From Rhizoclosmatium globosum (taxonomy: Eukaryota; Chytridiomycota; Chytridiomycetes; Chytridiales; Chytriomycetaceae): a DNA stretch of 64,000 nucleotides. This document shows positions 4,241 to 32,418 of the stretch, piece after piece. The translations under genes were made by a program, and so were the position numbers. The notes below the pieces were generated by a model. The model worked only from the letters and a program-made list of their open reading frames with translations. It had not been told where the DNA came from and did no database searches. The DNA lies in the NCBI GenBank assembly GCA_002104985.1, contig MCGO01000013.1:310001-374000 (forward strand), given 5' to 3'. How positions within the stretch are numbered: position 1 is the first letter of the stretch; each line of letters opens with the position of its first letter.

Positions 4241-5604
4241 ATGTTGCGACCGTCGCCCAATCCCAATCCACCAGTACCACCAACATCATCGACACTCACG
4301 CTTCTCTTCCAATCGCGGAGCAACGCACCTCCGAGCACAAAACGGGCTGTTCTCTGTGTTGCGAACGTGGCGAGCGAGTTCAGCGAAGGCGACATTTACA
4401 AGTTGTTTGTGCGTTTGCTTTCTCTCTGTCTCTCACTAACAACTCTGATAACGACTCTAACTCTGTAAACAGAGCCCGCAAATCTCGCGCCACGAGCGGC
4501 CCTTCTTTGCCCACGGAATACACGTGCCAATTGACTTGGATTCAGGGTCCTCGCTTGGTTGCTGTTTTGTGGTGAGTGGTGGGTATCGCTTGCGTTGGAA
4601 TACGATCGTAACCCGCAAATAGGAGTTTGAATCGTACTTGGATGCCCTCAATGCTCTTGAAACAACAAGTAAACTGATTCTTCACGGGAATCTCGTCTGT
4701 GTTCGATGGTCGTCGCAACAAGAACTACTCAGCAGCCTCTTTCCAGACTTGAAAGCTCCCCCGCTCGACGCATCTCCTCCTTCTGTGCCTGCCACGAAGC
4801 CCCGCGACCTCATCTTTCTTACGCGACAGAACATAAACAGTTTGCTTCTGCTATGTCGTGAGGCAAATGTGAGCACTACACCTTTCTCTACCACCTTCTA
4901 ACTACTTTTAAATACAGACGCGTTTCGCTGGAAAGTCTGTTGAAAAGCCGTTTCGTTGGGTCATCTCGGTGCTCACCAAAGTTCCATGGCATATGACAGA
5001 GTCGATTTCTACTATCCACCGTGACCATCTCTTTGAAATGCTCAAACGTCTTTTGAGTTTATTGATGTATTCGTGCAGATTGTCTAACTTCGTTTTTGCT
5101 CCATATAGTTTCCCTTGACTATGCCAAGACTTTACTCCAAGACCCACATTCTCAACTCGACCCAGATATTGTGTCCCAACTCATTCGTTGCGCACTTTGT
5201 GTCCCCGGTTTTACTGAAAAGCAAAAAGTTGCCGTTCTCAACGCGTCTGTGAGTGACGAAATAGACTTTTTTCCTTCAACCCATAACTCAATTATTATTA
5301 GGACTCGACTTGTCCTCCAGATCTTGAAAAATTCGTCTTTCTTGAATCCACGATGACTTCTGCTCCATCAACTCCGATAACGCCATACGCGTCGCGTCCC
5401 AGGATGTACCAACCAGGCGGCAAGAGCAAGTTTGGGGCCTACAAGCCTTTCCAATACCAAAAAGCTATTCCAGGCTACAAAAAGTCGTTCTACAAAGCTT
5501 CATCCTCCGATTCGTCACTGTCTCCGTTTGCTCCTACCCATTCTTCTCTCGCTGCTCAATCAAAGCCTTCATCTAGTTCGAGTGCGTTCTTTAAGAATGG
5601 TTGA
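4241..5604 (+). CDS. RRM-domain RNA-binding protein
   Basis: Splicing several short introns gives one protein of roughly 370 aa. Residues about 35-120 form an RNA recognition motif: strand 1 AVLCVANVA, helix 1 EGDIYKLF, RNP1-like GCCFVEFES, helix 2 ALNALETT, last strand NLVCVRW. Introns at about 4408-4471, 4571-4620, 4869-4918, 5050-5108 and 5247-5301 end in consensus GT and AG. The middle is a helical region (VPWHMTESISTIHRDHLFEM and on) that I do not recognise. The C-terminus is basic and rich in Ser, Pro, Tyr and Lys, as in many RNA-binding proteins. It is divergent from the F-box/LRR gene with 107 bp between start codons. Confidence 0.65.
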
Positions 5605-5827: not shown

Positions 5828-7906
5828 AATGCATCGCGTCTACATGATTCTCTTGCTTATATGGATTGCTGCTGTCTGGGCACAAGAAATAGATCTGTCA
5901 ATCCATGAACAGTTTTGGCAAGTCCGCCAAGAAATTAAAGAGTAAGGGTTTTCAAAATATTCACGTTCGACTGAAATCCTTACACAGGTCATGGCAAACA
6001 GAGCAAATAATCACAAGCGCTCAAAACTGGAATTATGCGATCGAAGAACACTACTTTCCACAAATTGTAGATCATTTCGGTACCGTACAAGGCCTCACTG
6101 ACAGCCGATTCAACCAATACTTCCTTCTCATGGATACGTTTTATAAATCCGGAGGACCAGTGTTCTTGTTCGTTGGTGGAGAGTCCGCCCTCAAGACTTC
6201 GGATTTCTATGGACTTGTGTTGGAACTTGCGCAAAAGTACAATGGTCTTTTGTTGGGACTTGAGCATCGATTTTATGGAGCTGGTAGGAAGCCCTCTTTG
6301 AGTTGAGAGATTTTGTTAATTCGTGGGACAGAATATGGTCGATCTGTTCCGACTGGAAGTATCAACTCAATGTCGCTACAACTTTGCACGAGTAAACAGG
6401 CAGTTGAAGACTTAGCGTACTTTGTTGAATCATTTCCGGCGTTGTTCCCCAAATATGGCTTGAACAGAAATACCAAGTGGATCTCGGTGGGTGGAAGTTA
6501 TCCTGGTAAATTTCCATGATTTTCAGTTTCCTTTCTGATTTGTTGTTTTGAATCAGGGGCATTGTCTGCTTGGCTGAGAGTGAAACACCCAGAATCAATT
6601 TATGCGTCTCACGCGTCAAGCGCCCCACTTCTTGCAGTCGAAACTTCTGGAGCTTTTCTTACGCTGTTGAAGAAGCGTTTGATTATTTCTCTGGAAATAG
6701 AGCGTGTATGAATGGGTGGACACGTGCGATTCAAGTTTTGGATCAAAAGCTTATGTCAATTGCTAGTGATAGTTCCGCACTGCTTAAGTTTCAAAACACC
6801 TTCTACGATATTCCAAAAAGTAGTGTTCAGTACATTGCAGACTTACCGACTGTTATTAGTTATATTATTGCTCCGGTAGCCCAATACGGACCACAATTTA
6901 GCTGGTGGCTCTATCAGATGGAAGCTCTATTCGAACACTCGATGCTGTGTGTGATGGTCGATTCTTGCCTGCTTTCACTGACCCCACAGCCACACCTGAC
7001 GCGTTACTGTCTGCATTACAAACATTATTCAAAACCTACACAATATCAGTCGCCAGTGGAAGAAACAAGCGTAAACGAGACGTAAGCAGCACATACAATT
7101 TCTGGATGTATCAAACGTGCAATGAGTTTGGGTTCCAACAAGTAGCTCAAGATCTCAGAATTCATCTCAGCTTTTACGAAGCTATACTGCTTATTCCCAA
7201 TTTATAACCGTTGACTATTGGAGACAAGTGTGTTTTTATCAAGGAAACTTCCATCCACCAAACACAGCCGAGACAAATGAATACTTTGGCGGATTGGACA
7301 TCAAAACACCAAGAATTCTTTTTGTGAATGGCAGATACGATCCTTGGCATTGGCTTTCCGTTTATGGAACTCCGCCTATTCCCAACAGTCAAACAAGCAT
7401 TTTGTATGACGGAGCCACACATTGTAATGATATGCAAGGCCGCGGGTCAGTCCGAACAATGTATCAGCTCAGTGTTTTTGATCAGATCTCTGCTGTGTAT
7501 GATTGTTGGCTTCTGGCTATTTGCGCCAATGTCAATTCTGTTGCTACGACCGCAACTACCAGCGCAGCTAGTACTCAAACAACATCAGTCACAAATTCTC
7601 TGACATTATTCAACTCAATATACACCACAACAAGGACTCCGTGGTTTCAGGCTGTTATCCTGCTTACACACTCTTTAGTAATTACATAGCAGGAGCTTAT
7701 GTATCTTTTGAAGGCCACAACTTTCGTTTCACTGGAGCCAACTGGGCCCAAATATCTTCTTGCAATTCAACTTTGCCTTTGAAATGTTACGATCCATTAT
7801 ATCTGTTGGAAGTTATGGTGTCGGAGTTCAGCTCAGCCAATTTGGAAGAAATTACAAGCTTTCTGATAGCGGATGGATTGATGAAGGCGCATGCACAATG
7901 TACTAA
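5828..7906 (+). CDS. S28 serine carboxypeptidase, copy 1, with carbohydrate-binding-like tail
   Basis: Secreted prolyl-carboxypeptidase-type protease (family S28). A signal peptide MHRVYMILLLIWIAAVWAQ starts at 5828. Core marks are VDHFGT, FNQYFLLMD, LEHRFYGA, the nucleophile motif GGSYPG (Ser, about 6488-6505), CDGRFLPAF, NGRYDPWHW (catalytic Asp) and GATHCNDM (catalytic His). Introns at about 5941-5987, 6284-6332 and 6505-6555 fit. After the catalytic domain comes a Thr/Ser-rich linker (7530-7640), then two short modules with Tyr/Trp and paired Cys (GAYVSFEGHNFRFTGANW; YGVGVQLSQFGRNYKLSDSGW) that resemble chitin-binding type 5/12 domains. Frame changes near 6645, 6903, 7165, 7640 and 7795 break the open frame. 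First of three tandem paralogues and the only one without a membrane anchor. Confidence 0.75.
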
Positions 7907-8002
7907 TGCTTCTCTTCTTTGTTTTATTCCGAAAAAGTAAACAAATTTTAATTCCACAAGCTTTCGTATTGTGTTTTCACATTGTTCAAAGAGAATGTTC
8001 CA

Positions 8003-9783
8003 ATGAAGCACTCCTTCTCTTCATATTCGCGTCCATTGTCATTGCCCAAAACGCGTTTCATGAGCTCGCTACCGCAACTTCGTGAAACCAAGCAGTTGGT
8101 CCGACAGGAAGCCGAAGAGTCGCTATTAACTCATCTTCAGCCGCGGCTGTGGTTTCAAAGGAATTTTTCTTTAAACAGAAGGTGGATCACTTTGGCACTT
8201 GCAAGGCGTAATGGAACCTGGTTCAATCAATATTTCTTGCTGTTGGATGCGTATTATGCCGCAGGTGGACCTGTGATATTGTTTATTGGTGGAGAAGATG
8301 AGATCCGCAGAGAAGATGATGAAGATAATAGTCTACAACGGCAAGTTGCGGAAAGTACGGTGGTCTATTGATTGTTTGGAACATCGTTTCTATGGAGCTG
8401 TGAGTCAAAAATCTGTAAAATCTGGTAATTTAACAACATTTGTAAATTGTACAAAAAGGAAGATCAGTTCCGACAGCTGATCTCTCGAATAATTCGTTGC
8501 GGCTGTTAACAAGTAGCCAAGCTGTCGAGGATATAGCAAACTTTATTCGATCATTTTCAAATGATTCCTCAATACAACACGACTCGGACTCAAAATGGAT
8601 ACTGATTGGAGCAAGTTACGCTGGAGCACTATCAGTTTGGCTCGAGAAAAATACCCAACATTGTTTTGCTGCCCACGCATCAATTGCTCCAGTAGTTCTC
8701 GAGCCCAACTTTTGGAGATACTCATACGCTGTAGAACAGGCAATGAATTTTTCAGTGGTTAAACGCTGTATGAGAGGTTGGACTCGGGCTGTTCGATTGT
8801 TGGACCAAACCATCTCCAGTTTGCAAGGCATAAATAAACTCAAGCATTCAATCAAAATTCTGGCTTAGTCAAATCAACGACTTGGGAGATTTTGGAACCA
8901 TTGTAACAACCAATTTGGATCAACCGCCCAGTACGGCCCCAGCATAAATATGCTTGTACCTTCCGCCAATAGTACTAGTGGTTTAACATACTTGGATGCT
9001 ATTTGTGGTGGAACCTATTTACCAGCATTTACTGATCCAAACGCGAAAGATGAAGACCTTCTTTCTTCACTTCAAAACCTTACAATCACGTTTCTTAAGG
9101 ATAATGGAATAAGTGGGGACTCTGATCCAAGCGTTGGTCTTTGGAATAGTGGTCTATTACTGATAGATCTTTCGATAATGGATGGTTTCTTGGCAGTATC
9201 AAACATGCAACGAATTTGGATATGCGATGACAGCACAGTCTGTAACAGTTCCGGGTCAATTGATTTCTGACTGGAGCGTATATTCCCAGTTTATCACTTT
9301 GGATTATGTGCAATCAATCTGTCAACGCAACAATTATCTGCTGACGGTGTACCGTCCAAGAATTAGATTACAGGGACTAATATTACTGCGTCTCGTATTT
9401 TATGGGTAAACGGCGATATTGATCCATGGCATTGGCTCTCTATCATAAACTCCCCGCCAATCAAGTATTATCTATCAAAATGCAACTCACTGCAACGATA
9501 TGTGGGGAATACGGCCAAAAGATTCAAACTATGTGTCTCTCATCTATCAGCAGATATTTGGTGTTTATGACTTCTGGCTTGGATATGCGGCGACAGCTAT
9601 ACCCCTGTTTTCCATTTTAATACAACATCAACTCAAACTTCCGGAATAAACGTCACAATGAACTCTCCAGAAGATATGAAAAGTCCGTATTCCTTGATTA
9701 TTGGCCTTGCCACTGGGGCCACAGCAATTGTCCTTCTGCTGATTGCAACTTACATTTACTTGAAAACAAGAAAATCAAAATAA
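8003..9783 (+). CDS. S28 serine carboxypeptidase, copy 2, membrane-anchored
   Basis: Second S28 paralogue. Marks in order are FKQKVDHFGT, GTWFNQYFLLLD, LEHRFYGA, GASYAGALSVWL (nucleophile Ser, about 8611-8646), EPNFWRYSYAVEQ, CGGTYLPAFTDP, NGDIDPWHWLS (Asp) and NATHCNDMWG (His). A hydrophobic segment near 9690-9765 (SLIIGLATGATAIVLLLIA) followed by KTRKSK predicts a type I membrane anchor, so the protease would face outside or the vacuole lumen. The frame breaks near 8010, 8200, 8350, 8370, 8850 and beyond. At the start one extra A after ATGAA would give a classic signal peptide (ALLLFIFASIVIAQ), and similar one-base repairs in short A or T runs rejoin LQG, EKY and LEHR. Sequence error is therefore more likely than decay. 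Confidence 0.72.
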
Positions 9784-25058: not shown

Positions 25059-25608
25059 TCTCTCCGTTTATTGCTCTACTACCTACCGCATACTCTAAGC
25101 TCTTAATCATTATTTATCTGTATTCTTTATTTTGGTATTTATTTGTTTTTCTTCTCTTTTTGTGAGAAAATCACCCGAGCTGCAACAAAAGGAGATGTTC
25201 TCTCTGCACTCTTCTTTTTTTTCTTATCGTTTATAACGCAATCATCATTAACCCAAGCTATTGGCCTGACCTTCAATGTCTTGCTTCTCGTTCATGATTG
25301 CCATAGGAAGGAGGATAAAACGGTACGAGGTCTGATCATTGGCCTCTCGACCACCTGTCTTTCTCCTACATACATCTCCTCAACTACCCTACCTGTCTAC
25401 TGCAACCCAATCAGCTCCTGCTTTCTCACTTGATCTTGCATCTGCGATTCAACTGATAATGTTTATGGAGCTGTTTGGTGTTCAAAAAGGCTATTTCTGG
25501 AATAACTTCCACCAAACTGTTTGCTGATCCACGTCAGTGTAGCAGAGTCTTTCGAATAAATATCGTCACTTCCTTCCATTCGTCTTTAACAAATCCATAC
25601 CAACAACA
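25059..25608. other. Divergent promoter region, Clr2 / oxygenase
   Basis: 550 bp between divergent start codons. The part at 25070-25240 is T-rich with pyrimidine tracts. Open frames at 25143-25527 show no family features. It probably contains both promoters. Confidence 0.4.
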
Positions 25609-26214
25609 ATGTCCCGTCTAACAGCATCTCCAGAGCTATCGCATCCAGTCCACCTGCTCCTGGACAACACCCCATCCAACAAACCCGAACCAATTCCTGT
25701 CTTCAAAGGAACTGATGCTACCTTCCTTGAACAAGGAAAAGAAAAGAGAATTGCATTCGTACTTCAAGACCTTCTCACGGCTGAAGAGTGCTCGAGTCTA
25801 ATTGCAGCAACCGAAGGACTTGGTGACGAACAGGCCTTGTTGAACATTGGATATGGCCGCCAAATCCTTGACGAGTCAGTCCAAGCGTTGCATCGTGGAC
25901 TCTGTTCCACTTGCCAACAAAATATGGGAACGGATCAAGTCATACGTTCCTCAAACTGTTCCGTTTGGAAATAATACCTTGTATGCTTCCTGTGTTAATG
26001 AACGGCTCCGTTTCCTGAAGTACAATCCTGGTGATCGCTTTCTCCCACACCAAGATGGATGTTTCCGAAGACCTGATGGATCTGAGCTCTCTGTTCTTAC
26101 TCTGCAATTATATTTGAATGTTGTTGAGGAAGGTGGAGAGACTACAATGTGGTCAGATAGGGGTGATGTGGAGGTTGCTGTACCTTGTGAAGTTGGGAAA
26201 GCGATTGTTTTTTC
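25609..26214 (+). pseudogene. 2-oxoglutarate/Fe(II) oxygenase (prolyl-4-hydroxylase type), 5' part, cut by transposon
   Basis: The N-terminal exon starts at ATG 25609. RIAFVLQDLLTAEECSSLI is typical of P4H-like dioxygenases. After a one-base frame change near 25855 comes SKRCIVDSVPLANKIWERIK, then RLRFLKYNPGDRFLPHQDG, where PHQDG carries the Fe-binding HxD pair, and LSVLTLQLYLN with GGETTMW. The open frame meets the KDZ inverted repeat at 26215 and stops at TAG four codons after GKAIVFS. The distal Fe-binding His and the 2-oxoglutarate-binding basic residue lie on the other side of the element (32287-32418), so this part alone cannot form an active site. Function before insertion inferred: hydroxylation of protein or small-molecule substrate in the P4H family. 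Confidence 0.85.
26207..26214. repeat. 8-bp target site duplication, left copy
   Basis: GTTTTTTC directly precedes the left inverted repeat and recurs at 32287-32294 just after the right inverted repeat. An 8-bp direct repeat at the borders is what transposase-made staggered cuts leave. Confidence 0.92.
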
Positions 26215-26305
26215 CACCTAGTCTTTTTCACTGATATAATAGAACATCAGAAACAATTTTTCCTATCGCCCATCCCTCATCGGCAGGGAAACGAAAAGCG
26301 CACGC
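26215..26305. repeat. Left terminal inverted repeat of KDZ element, 91 bp
   Basis: Identical to the reverse complement of 32196-32286 over all 91 positions; similarity ends abruptly after GCGCACGC. The transposase ATG lies 34 bp further in, so this repeat probably also supplies its promoter. Confidence 0.93.
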
Positions 26306-26339
26306 AGAAAAACGAAGAGCTCCTGACAACTCCAACACA

Positions 26340-29213
26340 ATGAACCACGGCCGTCACTCACAACAGAACTTCTACTCGTCCAGCAACCCAATCAGCAAAA
26401 GGAAGCATCGAGATCTCAGTAGCGACTCTTCCGACTTGTCAGACGCTGAATCAGAGGAAAGGGCTGAAGCTTGGGCCTTTGTTGAGCGGCAACAAGTGGC
26501 TTCGCTTTCAACTGCAGCAGCCAATATCCCTCTCCCAGTAACATCTGCAGCATCACCGTCCCCGGACCTCTGGGATAATATCACTAACCCTGTGATTGAC
26601 TCTGAGTATGTCTCTGTCCTCATTCCATACTTAATTTGACACATCACTTCCCAGTAGCGACGATTCGGAATCTGGCGAATACGAATATGATTCAGAAGGC
26701 TCGTCAACCAACGATCTTGACGCCAATGATGTCTGGACAGAAGCTCGTAAAACTGAAATCGCTGACTACTTGCGATTCCCGTCCTCGCAGCCATCAACTC
26801 GTACTTCTTGGAAGGAAGAGCGTGCTAATTGGATGAGTGATTCCAATGCCGTCCTCCCCCTCTTGATTCTAGCCGTTGCGTGTTGGGAAACCGTGGATCT
26901 GATTCCAAGCCGTCGTTGCGGTGAACTGTCCTGTCAAACTCCCCCAAGTTTCAAGTGCTACTCTTGTATGGTCACATCTCCTACCGCTTCTCATTTCTGC
27001 AGCATCCATGCAACTCAACATCGATGGAACAGCCACTGTCATCGGGTCCAAGATAAGCAAGACCACCTCCCTCCACTCCTCACAACTCCATCTGGAAAGC
27101 CTCGAGTAAAGAAGATTCGGTGTTGCGACGAAGCTCGTGGAACTGGAAGGAGGGCTCTGCTGCATTCGTTGACTGGATCGGAGTCTGTTCAGCTCGTGAA
27201 CTGCCCAAATCATTCGGACGGACATGAAATGTGTGCAGTACTCTTGAGAGACTATGGATTCCTGCCTTCTCGAGTTCATCATACGGGTAAGATACTCCTG
27301 TCTATCATTTCAGGACTCTAAATCATAATTAGACCATGCATTCTCATATCAGCTTGTGTCTTTGGGTCTTGTTCTGCGGTCTCTTGGAGTTGCATTTCAG
27401 GTGTCCGCGGAAGCCTATTTCGGAACTGACGTCAAGGATCCCAAAGCTTCGGGACTGTACCAACCATACATGGACGCAGTTCGGCAGCTGGCTGTCATTA
27501 AGCATCACACTCATCATGGTACCTTCACTCCTGAGCTGGTTGAGGAGCTTGGAATAGGGCAGACTGTGTGTCCAGCTTGTACAGGTGGCGTTGATCCATG
27601 TGGTCCAGCTGCATTTGTGAGTTCGTTTGTTTATCAACAATGTTTCTTACAATTGTATTGCAGACAATGGATGGCTTTGAGTCAGCTAACAAGAAGTCCA
27701 TGGAGCGCGGCGGAGGAGGGAGTCATGGGAGCTTTCCCTTTACGGAAGTGTACTTCAAAGACCCAGAAGTTCGAGATGTTGTGGCTGATGCAAAGGCAGC
27801 CAAGCAACCTGTCAAGCCAAAACTTGGGTGTGAGGCTCAACACAAGGCTGGAGGTACAAGCGGAGCAAAGACAGCAGGGAAAGACATTGACATGATCATT
27901 CACGTCGATTGCGCGGCACATTCTGTGGTTCAACGTGTTTATGGTGAGGACCTACTCATTGTTCTGTGTTGCTAATATTTGCACAAGATGTCAAAGGCGG
28001 TGAACGTTTGGTGTATGCGGATGATGTGATCAACTGGGGTAAAGAAGCGTTCAAGAAAAGAGGTTTTGTGCTGGGATACGACGTGGCTTGCAAAGAGCTG
28101 TCCCATCTTGACTTCTATGGCCTCCTTCAGTCTATTCTTGGCGCTATCCTGTTTATCTTATTCATTCCCGCCATGCACGTTTATGCTCATGGGAAAGACT
28201 GTCAGAGTCTTTTTAGTCCGCGGTTTTTGATGGGGTTGGGGTTGACGATGGATGGGGAAGGGCATGAGCGAGTCAACAGTTGGTTATCTCGAATTATCGG
28301 CTTAACGCAGCGAGAGACTTTTGAAAACCGGCGGATGGATATAGTCTTGTTTCTGGAGTTCTTCAATTGGTCAAAAATCCGGAGGATGGTGTCATGGACA
28401 CAGGAAAAGCTTTTAACCACGTTTGCAAGGCTTGCAGAAGTGAAGGAAGCTATTGGAAACCAGTGGTGTAAGATAGAACAAATCCGCTACAATGATGTAG
28501 TTGCGGCGATGACAGCTTTGAGACAGCGATTGGTTGATCGTCAACCCAAGGATGTTCCATCAACAAAGGAAGACTTGCGACTGCAAATTGATCAGCTTGC
28601 TCGTTCAATTCTATCTATGGACAAACATCTTAGGTGTGCCCCTGGAACCAAAATGTCGAAACGACTTAATGCCGCTATAAATTCTACTTTTGTTGAGTTG
28701 TACAAGAAGCTTGACGAGTTGAATGGTATTTTATCTTTACTTCTCAGCCTTACTGCTGATCATTTATTTCTAGCATTGGAGCCAAATAACCCGCCGCTCA
28801 CATTTGCTCAGGTAAAAGCAGCACTTGTGCTGACACCTGTTGATCCGAGGCAATCTGATTTTGATTCATTGGTCACACTCTACTTTCGATATTGCGAGGA
28901 TCTCTTTCACCATCAGAACTACTTGAAGAATATGGTTGGATTCTATGAACAGCGCGAAAAGGAGTACTGGGCCGTTGTTGAAGAGAAAGTCAATGGTTGT
29001 GATTATCGATCCAAGGAAGCGTTGATGGGTTTGAGGCGGCGTCGTATGCAAGTGGAGAACGAACACTCACAATCAGCAAAAGAAGCATTACGTGTTTTTG
29101 ATGCAGATGGGGAGTTTGCCTCTTTGTACTTTATAAAGCATTTGAGTGAAATCAAGTTAGCCTTTCAGTCAAAAGACTCAGTATTAAGTCGCCAAAACAT
29201 TAAGAGCATATAA
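26340..29213 (+). CDS. KDZ transposase, 895 aa
   Basis: Five exons (26340-26605, 26655-27286, 27333-27616, 27664-27943, 27988-29213) join without a stop to exactly 896 codons. After an acidic, Ser-rich N-terminus there is a cysteine cluster (RRCGELSCQ, FKCYSCM, SHFCSIHATQH) that resembles the Zn-binding CxC module before KDZ catalytic domains. The RNase H-like catalytic part has TMDGFES (first Asp region), VLGYDVACKELSHLDFYG, PAMHVYAHGKDCQ and GLTMDGEGHERVNSW, close to the family motifs (YDIAC, P-x-FH-x-x-AH-x-x-C, GxxDGExxER). The last 250 residues are helical and coiled-coil-like. It should bind the 91-bp ends and cut and paste the element. The start is the first ATG after the repeat. Confidence 0.9.
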
Positions 29214-30273
29214 ATAAAGTAATTTATTGCGTTTAAGAAAATACTGTGCATATTTTCTTTCGGAGTCTTGAGGCAGTATAAGTTGCACCAACACGTATAC
29301 ACAGACATGCACCATCATTGACACAAACAACTCCGATACACCAAACTTGGCGATTATCTTTATTGATCTAGTATCCAATGAAAATGAACCCTTTGCTAAA
29401 TTTTGTACCAGTGGAATTATGGAAAATAGAGCCGGAATAGAATGTTGCCGCATAAAAAAGCCATGGAACTCCATAGATCATTATTTGTCAGAACATATTG
29501 CCATAAATCAAAAAGCAATCGTTTCTTTGCAGCTTTAAACTTGTCTTGGACTTCGTTGATGGTTGGTTCAATTTGTTTTCCTGCGTCGTTTGCCCCTAAC
29601 TTTCTCAGCTATACAGCAGAATATGATGGCAGCTTAAGAAGAGCGAAAATATTCGTTTTGATTCCATGCTTATTCTGGCCTGTTCTCTGAATGCTGTTTT
29701 GGTTAACCTGTCAGTTGTCTCCTGTCTCTTGCCTCGATCAAGTGCAGGTAGGATACTATTACCAATAGTAGCCTGATCGAGTCAATCACGCGCAACTTAC
29801 ACCTTTCGAAGTTCTTTGTTTTCGTATGATTTAGAAGTTTGATCTGTTCAATGTTGTTGATATCGACAGCTTTGATTATCAACACGAAGTTATGTTTTTG
29901 AGTCACCGTATCGGTACAAAGGTTCCACTATCTCAGCTTGAATGTTGTTAACTTTTTGTAAGTGAATATCCATATTTGCTTTTGAGTAACGGTACTTATG
30001 GTTGAGAGGCAATACGGAGTCACCAACTTTTTTAGAACAAAGAAAGAAAGAAGAACTATGATAGAAAAAGGAACAACGAGATAAAAGGAACGAGTCAGAT
30101 TAAAAAAGAATAGAATCAATCAGTTACAAAGCTTTAAAAGAACAACCACAAGGTATCCTCGCACCCAACATACTTTGTGTGTACCTTCGGCGTCAATTTG
30201 TTGATTCATTCCTCGCACTGTCTTCACGCGTAATATTTGCCACTAAGTGATTGCTTCCCTCTGACGTTCCCAC
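29214..30273. other. Non-coding AT-rich interior of the KDZ element
   Basis: 1,060 bp between the stop codons of the two convergent genes. Only short open frames without family features are present on either strand. It probably holds both 3' UTRs; I saw no internal repeat or RNA gene. Confidence 0.55.
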
Positions 30274-32140
30274 TTAATATGTTTCAATGGCGCTATTGAT
30301 TTGATTAACACTTTGGCTTGTGTCTCCATCGTTATCGTTTGCATTGTTGTCTCTGTTGTTTCCGCACTCCTCGTCGCCATCGTCGCCATTGTCACCATTG
30401 TCACCATCGTCATCGTCGCCATTGAGAATTCCGTCACTGTCTTCATTTCCACCGTCTTCTGTGTCGTTATCTTCGTTTTCATCTTCCTCGTTTATATCCC
30501 CATCTTCATCTGCAGTCTCTTCTTCATCCTTGTCGCTAGACGGCTTCACCAAAACCAAGCGAACTTTGCCTGGGATTTTCAAATTATTCAAAAGTCTGAT
30601 GCATTGCTGTTTTTGATACTTATTATAAGAGGAAAAGGCTCATTACAGGCTTACATTGGAACTTAGACTGGTATACTGTTTGGCGGTAAATCCAAAGCCC
30701 TCCAACCGCACCCCCTGATATCCCTCAGGTCGCAACATCTTGACTATTTGAACAACTTTTGTTGTTTTCTTGTTGAGTCTGATAAGTTCTTCATTGATCC
30801 TCACAAGCATTTCGGATCTCGCTCGAGCGCGCAAGGACGTATTATCTAGTTGACCGGAGATTTCGAGCCTATTTGGCATTGGAGTATTGCTTTTCTTGTT
30901 TTTCAGGTACAGTTCCGCAGCAAACATTGTTGCCGGGTGCGTGGTTAACTTCTTTTCAAGCTCTCTAGAGACTCTCCTCCCAACTTTGCCTGCGCTGATG
31001 TTCATGGACTTTCCTGATTGCAGATCGAACATATATCCCTGAGTTTGAGTTTCATATTTCTCTGTTATGTTAGAATTAGTTTGATGAGCACACACACGTC
31101 AGATTTACCAGCCAGCTTTCTTAGGCGCTCTTTCACACTCTCAATAAGCTTATTTTGTTCACGAACAAATTTGTTTTCCGAAAGCTCTTCGTGTCGTGGG
31201 CCTTGTTGCTTTAACTCCTCAACTTGCTGTTCCCACTGCTTCACCAATGCCACATGCTCGGGAGTTTTCTGCTCCATTATAGTTTGATATAAAGTCTTTC
31301 CATGTTCAAGCTGGTACGCAGCAGTCCATTTGGTGAAATGAAGTGGCACGTACGATGAATCTCCTTCTCCTGCTTGCTTGAGCCCTTCAGCATTTATCTC
31401 TACACAATAGTATCAGTTTGCCTCACTTTCGCCCAACAATACATACTTGAAAGCATCTTGCCAGCATAGTTCAAATACTGATAATATACTCTTGGCGTTT
31501 CAACTTCTCGTACAGCGACGACTTTAGGAATTACAACAACTTCTCTTTCGAGCTTATTAACGCCAGGCGCTTGGATCGCGTTAGAGCTTGCAACAACTTC
31601 ATCGGGACCTGAATGTGGTTGTCCGCCTAGAAATGATGTGGGTTTAACAGACAGAAGAAAAGCAAGGTAGTAATAAATAAACGACTCACTTGATGGGGTA
31701 TTTGTCGTAGGGAGTGTTTGACTGGTTGTCGGTGGTTCAAGTTGTGTGGTCTCAATTCGAACAGGCGGCGTCAACAAAAGCTGGTTTGGGTTGTATGCAT
31801 CGTCGATATTGTAACGCTCCTTTGCGATTCGTTTGATGAGAACCTGATTGCGTGTTGTAAGCTAATTGCAGTGATAGTCTTTGATCCACCAACTCACAGT
31901 GATCTGGTTATACCTGACGCCATACAGCCTCGCAATCGTCTCGTTCATCTTCTTGAACGCATCGGTTGCTTTAATACCAAGCTCATGGACATGATACCGC
32001 AATTGTTGAAGCTGGAATGGAGAGAGACCAAAGTATCCATCGTCTTCTGATCGCTTGCGCTTTGTTCCCTGCGGAGGTTGGGGCTTGGTGTTAGAATTAT
32101 AGTTCAATGCCGCTGGTGATGTTATCAATGCGCCTACCAT
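30274..32140 (-). CDS. Unknown passenger protein of the KDZ element, 541 aa
   Basis: Six exons (32140-31898, 31861-31690, 31626-31447, 31399-31109, 31061-30655, 30606-30274) with GT-AG introns of 36-63 nt join to exactly 542 codons. Not recognised. Visible parts: a basic patch (TKRKRSEDD, residues about 26-34) that could be a nuclear signal; a helical segment from LSPFQLQQLRYHVHELGIKA with MNETIARLYGVRYNQIT that could fold as a small DNA-binding helical unit; a Pro/Thr linker; a long charged helical middle (about residues 210-300) and a second basic block (RVSRELEKK, ARARSEMLVRINEELIRL); and an acidic C-terminal tail of about 90 residues of Asp, Glu, Asn and Gly. ATG lies 55 bp inside the right repeat. 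A role as accessory transposition factor is a guess. Confidence 0.82.
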
Positions 32141-32195
32141 TGTTGCAACCTTTGTCGTTGTGTTGGTGCAGGTTGTCCGAGAGTTTGATTTGTGC

Positions 32196-32286
32196 GCGTG
32201 CGCTTTTCGTTTCCCTGCCGATGAGGGATGGGCGATAGGAAAAATTGTTTCTGATGTTCTATTATATCAGTGAAAAAGACTAGGTG
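32196..32286. repeat. Right terminal inverted repeat of KDZ element, 91 bp
   Basis: Exact reverse complement of 26215-26305. The passenger gene begins 55 bp inside it on the minus strand, so this copy probably serves as that gene's promoter. Confidence 0.93.
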
Positions 32287-32294
32287 GTTTTTTC
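32287..32294. repeat. 8-bp target site duplication, right copy
   Basis: GTTTTTTC, same as 26207-26214. The insertion thus chose a T-run inside the oxygenase coding sequence. Confidence 0.92.
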
Positions 32295-32418
32295 CCATCC
32301 GATTGAGCATGAGGGGAACGAAGTCACACGGGGTGTTAAGTATGTAATGAGGTCGGACATCATGTATTCTCGGCAGCCGCCAGTGGATGAGTCTCCTCAA
32401 CAACCAGATCAGCAGTAG
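32287..32418 (+). pseudogene. 2-oxoglutarate/Fe(II) oxygenase, 3' part displaced by transposon
   Basis: Read in the frame that continues from 26214, this piece encodes SHPIEHEGNEVTRGVKYVMR, then SDIMYSR and a short Pro/Gln tail ending at TAG 32416-32418. HPIEHEG holds the distal Fe-ligand His and RGVKYVMR the basic residue that binds the 2-oxoglutarate carboxylate, exactly the C-terminal half of the double-stranded beta-helix missing from 25609-26214. With the element in place it has no start codon or promoter. Confidence 0.87.

Follow-up and report, generated by a model that had tools for sequence, protein, structure and literature searches.

Cryptococcus neoformans carries three described KDZ transposons, KDZ1, KDZ2 and KDZ3. 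According to the accessible part of PMC12810828, they are 9–11 kb long, end in terminal inverted repeats (TIRs) of 241, 139 and 169 bp, respectively, are reported to encode a CxC1 domain and are flanked by target-site duplications (TSDs) of 8 bp (KDZ1) or 4–8 bp (KDZ2 and KDZ3). Other fungal KDZ elements—TET-carrying Kyakuja and Zisupton of mushrooms and Dileera of rusts—have a second gene, encoding a TET/JBP dioxygenase, and the Kyakuja families of Laccaria have 7-bp TSDs and no TIRs (PMC12730594, in the excerpts available). PIF/Harbinger elements combine a DDE transposase with a separate DNA-binding Myb/SANT protein and create 3-bp TWA duplications; the role of the second open reading frame is called unclear in the portion of PMC4482050 at hand. 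Here we analyse a 6,072-bp DNA transposon at positions 26215–32286 of a 64,000-nucleotide stretch (the window) of contig C35 from the chytrid Rhizoclosmatium globosum (Chytridiales). It belongs to the known KDZ superfamily, and what differs is a second gene without a TET/JBP dioxygenase. The paired ends, the 8-bp duplication, an element-free allele, an open KDZ transposase and sister copies elsewhere in the genome are all directly observed, and we consider it very probable that this two-gene KDZ-superfamily transposon inserted recently into one homologous chromosome copy. A search of the literature on KDZ transposons in fungi or chytrids and on Rhizoclosmatium returned no title or abstract describing the element or its second gene.

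Element structure and transposase

The two ends are identical, in inverted orientation, at all 91 terminal positions (TIRs at 26215–26305 on the + strand and 32196–32286 on the − strand, starting CACCTAGTCTTTTT), and GTTTTTTC lies on either side of them, at 26207–26214 and 32287–32294. A preliminary description of this DNA had proposed perfect 91-bp inverted repeats, an exact 8-bp target duplication and a definable empty site, and all three hold. Scanning the whole window for exact 8-bp direct repeats around inverted ends 1–12 kb apart, with 25 end bases scored, left this pair alone at 25/25; the runner-up reached 17, and five order-1 simulated windows gave 15 or 16. The joined flanks match a homologous contig of the same assembly, C312, where the element is absent and a single GTTTTTTC is present.

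Two genes converge within the element, a transposase on the + strand (26340–29213) and a second gene on the − strand (30274–32140). With the same TIR at both ends, 35 and 56 bp upstream of the respective start codons, the layout suggests that the repeat could double as a promoter of both genes.

The transposase is encoded by six exons (26340–26605, 26655–27286, 27333–27616, 27664–27943, 27988–28725 and 28774–29213, the last running to the stop), giving 879 residues with no internal stop. Its introns were placed by hand and later checked against an annotated relative, P0002. An 896-codon model retained the last, 48-nt intron, a stretch that P0002 lacks, and a 995-residue model from a splice search by frame alone was dropped for its poor introns. 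Residues 394–611, encoded across exons 3–5, match the Pfam KDZ family PF18758 (E = 7.3e-21; 75.3 bits, cut-off 26.6), confirming the KDZ identity suggested earlier. D397, D519 and E578 are invariant in 8/8 aligned transposases, including that of the outlying family F described below, and we infer that they form the DDE catalytic triad. From KDZ membership and the flanking duplications, such an enzyme would cut at the TIR ends and join the element to the target at cuts with an 8-bp stagger. No Pfam CxC domain was matched in the six transposases scanned. The transposase alignment has conserved Cys and His residues N-terminal of the KDZ domain, and relatives of the protein carry the source name 'CxC2-like'.

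Families in the genome

Querying the genome with the TIR gave 17 matches, and a transposase query extended the search to further families. Both ends were recovered for 15 elements, which we assigned to six families; two pieces with a single end, close to the edges of their contigs (C281 and C24:950), lie outside this count. Family A consists of the window copy, C157 and C90; B of C401 and C113, with the deleted B-like copies C388 and C279; C of C404; D of C1; E of C361 and C224; and F of C24, C290 and C400, with the internally deleted C9. Exact 8-bp duplications enclose 15/15, every one different, although seven elements (C404, C1, C361, C224, C24, C290 and C400) came from a scan requiring such a duplication; their ends were also covered, in 7/7, by a search for inverted repeats run separately. 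From A to F in turn, the perfect match between left and right arms extends over 91, 87, 98, 22, 55 and 21 bp, and the arms agree at 95, 94, 98, 83, 99 and 67 of the first 100 bases. F is the weakest family because its arm match is the lowest on both measures.

The preliminary description had called for a search for further copies and TIR-only derivatives, and had named the lack of any other copy, together with the lack of a KDZ profile match, as grounds for giving the element up. Copies exist and KDZ was matched. TIR-only derivatives were not found in the TIR search of the genome; the shortened copies recovered are internally deleted ones of 4.1–4.3 kb. One of these, the 4.1-kb F copy at C9:126818–130906, has intact ends, a target duplication CTCCTCAG and an indel in its TIR, and is likely a non-autonomous derivative. 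Two nested insertions, 1,087 and 8,038 bp long, break up the A copy at C90:184941–200082, and each is flanked by 10 bp of the element in duplicate. C418 and C69 showed no paired ends. A distant KDZ-like gene occurs in related copies at C2:153396–154121, C106:67919–69619 and C57:619758–619943; because the stretches fetched around the C2 and C106 copies hold no paired ends, it is possibly immobile or domesticated.

Beyond this genome, the window transposase shares 48–66% identity, within the searched region, with KDZ transposases from Obelidium mucronatum, Rhizoclosmatium hyalinum and R. sp. JEL0117 (P0004, P0005 and P0007–P0010), each of which carries a precomputed PF18758 match. Database relatives from R. 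globosum itself are P0001–P0003, P0006, P0011–P0013, P0015 and P0016. The only relative of the second gene found outside R. globosum is P0014 of JEL0117, which is nearly identical to the B second protein; P0005 is likewise nearly identical to stretches of the R. globosum D transposase. These near-identities would fit either close strain kinship or recent transfer.

The second gene

The second gene is modelled with seven exons on the − strand: an ATG alone (32138–32140), an exon with a basic start and a predicted three-helix domain (31898–32068), four central exons (31690–31843, 31447–31626, 31109–31399 and 30655–31061) and a last exon (30274–30606) carrying an acidic tail, in which 37/89 residues are D or E. 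The start agrees with that of the annotated window protein P0013. Models of 542 codons (541 residues) and 535 residues were replaced after the families were compared, as P0013 and the B–E models favour the ATG-only first exon. The A–E models all have this exon, in B only via a GC–AG intron, and the annotated B protein P0001 has a different start from our B model. A first model for family C, which had stops, was replaced using another acceptor. In the public annotation the window gene is divided between two hypothetical proteins, P0013 and P0016.

The resulting protein has 512 residues and stops 27 codons earlier than that of the sister copy C157. The element had been described as intact, with two genes splicing to whole codons (896 and 542). 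Its perfect ends, open transposase and open spliced frames remain, but the codon counts came from weaker models (now 879 and 512 residues) and the second gene falls short of its sister.

Sequence relatives of the second gene are present in families A–E. In F, comparing profiles connects a gene in the same place with those of the other families (probability 95.5, E = 1.4e-8, one pair, columns 157–432), the match lying outside the N-terminal domain and the F rows being composites of models. By eye, an intron also interrupts the N-terminal domain of the F gene at the corresponding position. Pairwise similarity to F was unconvincing: the A query scored 79, and eight shuffles of the D query scored up to 72. 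Judged by these sequence comparisons, the second gene occurs in all six families, in F by profile only.

The ratio of non-synonymous to synonymous substitution rates (dN/dS) between A and B is 0.17 for the second gene without its tail and 0.20 with it, against 0.10 for the transposase, with dS ~1.7; these ratios rest on the A–B pair, as dS is saturated in every other pair among A–D, and the C224 second gene of family E, with stops in its model, was left out. dN rises in the same order for both genes (A–B < A–C < A–D).

No Pfam or PDB relative of the second protein was found, its C-terminal half (mean pLDDT 37.8, no usable structure model) having been left out of the fold search, and Pfam gave no Myb/SANT match. 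The best of the weak Pfam matches, to iSTAND (E = 0.0088, in 1/5 members), was taken as chance. The predicted three-helix domain may resemble homeodomains. Together with the basic start and the acidic tail, this possible resemblance led us to propose that the second protein would bind DNA in the TIRs or close to them and aid transposition or expression of the element; we put the chance that it is a DNA-binding transposition helper at about even. By analogy, the chytrid element may work like the two-gene PIF/Harbinger elements, in which the second protein has a role in nuclear import and transposition. More tentatively still, chytrid KDZ transposons could form a two-component lineage in which the transposase and an obligate new DNA-binding partner have co-evolved across six or more families, a single TIR sequence being at once the place of cutting, the place of binding and a promoter common to both genes.

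It is possible, if rather unlikely, that the second protein instead acts outside cutting and joining and serves to protect the element or to promote its expression, for instance as an antagonist of host silencing. Anti-silencing has been proposed for the TET/JBP second gene of fungal KDZ elements, in the available text of PMC12730594, and the acidic tail would suit a transcription factor; the chytrid protein, however, matches no dioxygenase and no other enzyme in Pfam. We think it improbable that the gene is a passenger, captured once and carried without function. The shortened tail of the window copy, the stops that the gene has in the deleted C388 and C279 copies and a faster evolution than that of the transposase would all fit a passenger, but its occurrence in all six families, the intron positions conserved across the A–E models and the low A–B dN/dS argue against it.

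Insertion site and age

Contig C312 is collinear with window positions 5494–52090 across the 39 kb fetched, at 96.5–97.4% identity; collinearity breaks at the element and at about 1.5 kb at 6881–8386. We looked for the other allele at 13/15 sites, leaving out C290 (low complexity) and C9 (recognised later). An allele without the element is present at 10/13 (the window, C401, C113, C388, C279, C404, C1, C24, C400 and C90), the left flank of the C113 empty allele aligning over 25 bp only, and none was found for C157, C361 and C224. A single, unaltered 8 bp is kept in 9/10 of these alleles. On C150, the allele opposite C90, 6 bp are gone at the junction, two of them from the 8-bp target, as either a chance deletion or an excision scar. 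At four sites (C388, C401, C1 and C400) the filled copy is accompanied by two empty homologues, which exceeds the expectation for a plain diploid; in places, the assembly thus contains three related copies. We infer that the window belongs to strain JEL800, the assembly of which is reported as likely diploid in the part of PMC6757388 available.

Between the window copy and that on C157 there are 13 substitutions and two deletions. When C90 is added to the comparison, the window copy (6,072 bp) has 6 private substitutions, and C157 has 7 as well as both deletions. One of the C157 deletions shifts the transposase frame and C90 is split by its nested insertions; thus, among the three A copies, only the window transposase is open and uninterrupted. 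The preliminary description had judged the insertion to be probably recent, and the sequence comparison supports this, as 6 private substitutions in 6,072 bp compare with a difference of ~3% between the homologous contigs around the element. In family F, the C290 and C400 copies, which occupy different target sites, show no difference over 6,139 bp, and the C9 copy has 99.97% identity over 3,517 bp.

Loss by excision from C312, or a duplicated region in place of an allele, either of which could make the insertion old, is very improbable: excision is compatible with data from one genome, and the four sites with two empty homologues are not accounted for by a plain diploid, but the long collinearity of C312 outside its two breaks, the intact 8 bp at all the empty sites save that opposite C90, the reported likely diploidy and the few substitutions between sister copies in about 6 kb all speak against these readings.

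The insertion interrupts a 2OG-Fe(II) oxygenase-like gene on the + strand (PF13640, E = 2.9e-6), with an upstream open stretch at 25844–26214 and a downstream part at 32295–32418, and the C312 copy matches across the junction. Within 25543–26214 plus 32295–32418, the window gene has a frame change upstream of the insertion. In C312 (152821–153269), the oxygenase-like copy differs by 1 bp shortly past the empty site, and its frame is changed there.

Discussion

The KDZ element described here is young and complete, its genome also holds an empty allele and several sister families, and its second gene is conserved. This makes it possible to ask directly whether a partner protein is required for KDZ transposition. 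Insertions that differ between homologous chromosomes also offer a way of tracing recent transposition in a chytrid.

The element falls outside PIF/Harbinger, as its transposase matches KDZ and its TSD is 8 bp rather than TWA. It also differs from the Laccaria Kyakuja families in having 8-bp TSDs and long TIRs. With KDZ1–KDZ3 of C. neoformans it shares a KDZ transposase, long TIRs and, with KDZ1, an 8-bp TSD, but at 6.1 kb it is smaller than those 9–11-kb, CxC1-bearing elements. The accessible part of PMC12810828 shows the C. neoformans elements to move and mentions no second gene like the chytrid one; the chytrid element is known from sequence alone. From the TET/JBP-carrying KDZ elements it is set apart by a second protein with no dioxygenase match in Pfam. 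It nevertheless has in common with them a transposase accompanied by a second gene and CA..TG ends, and its 8-bp TSDs recur in Zisupton and in the Dileera example Zisupton-1_PGr, as given in the excerpts of PMC12730594.

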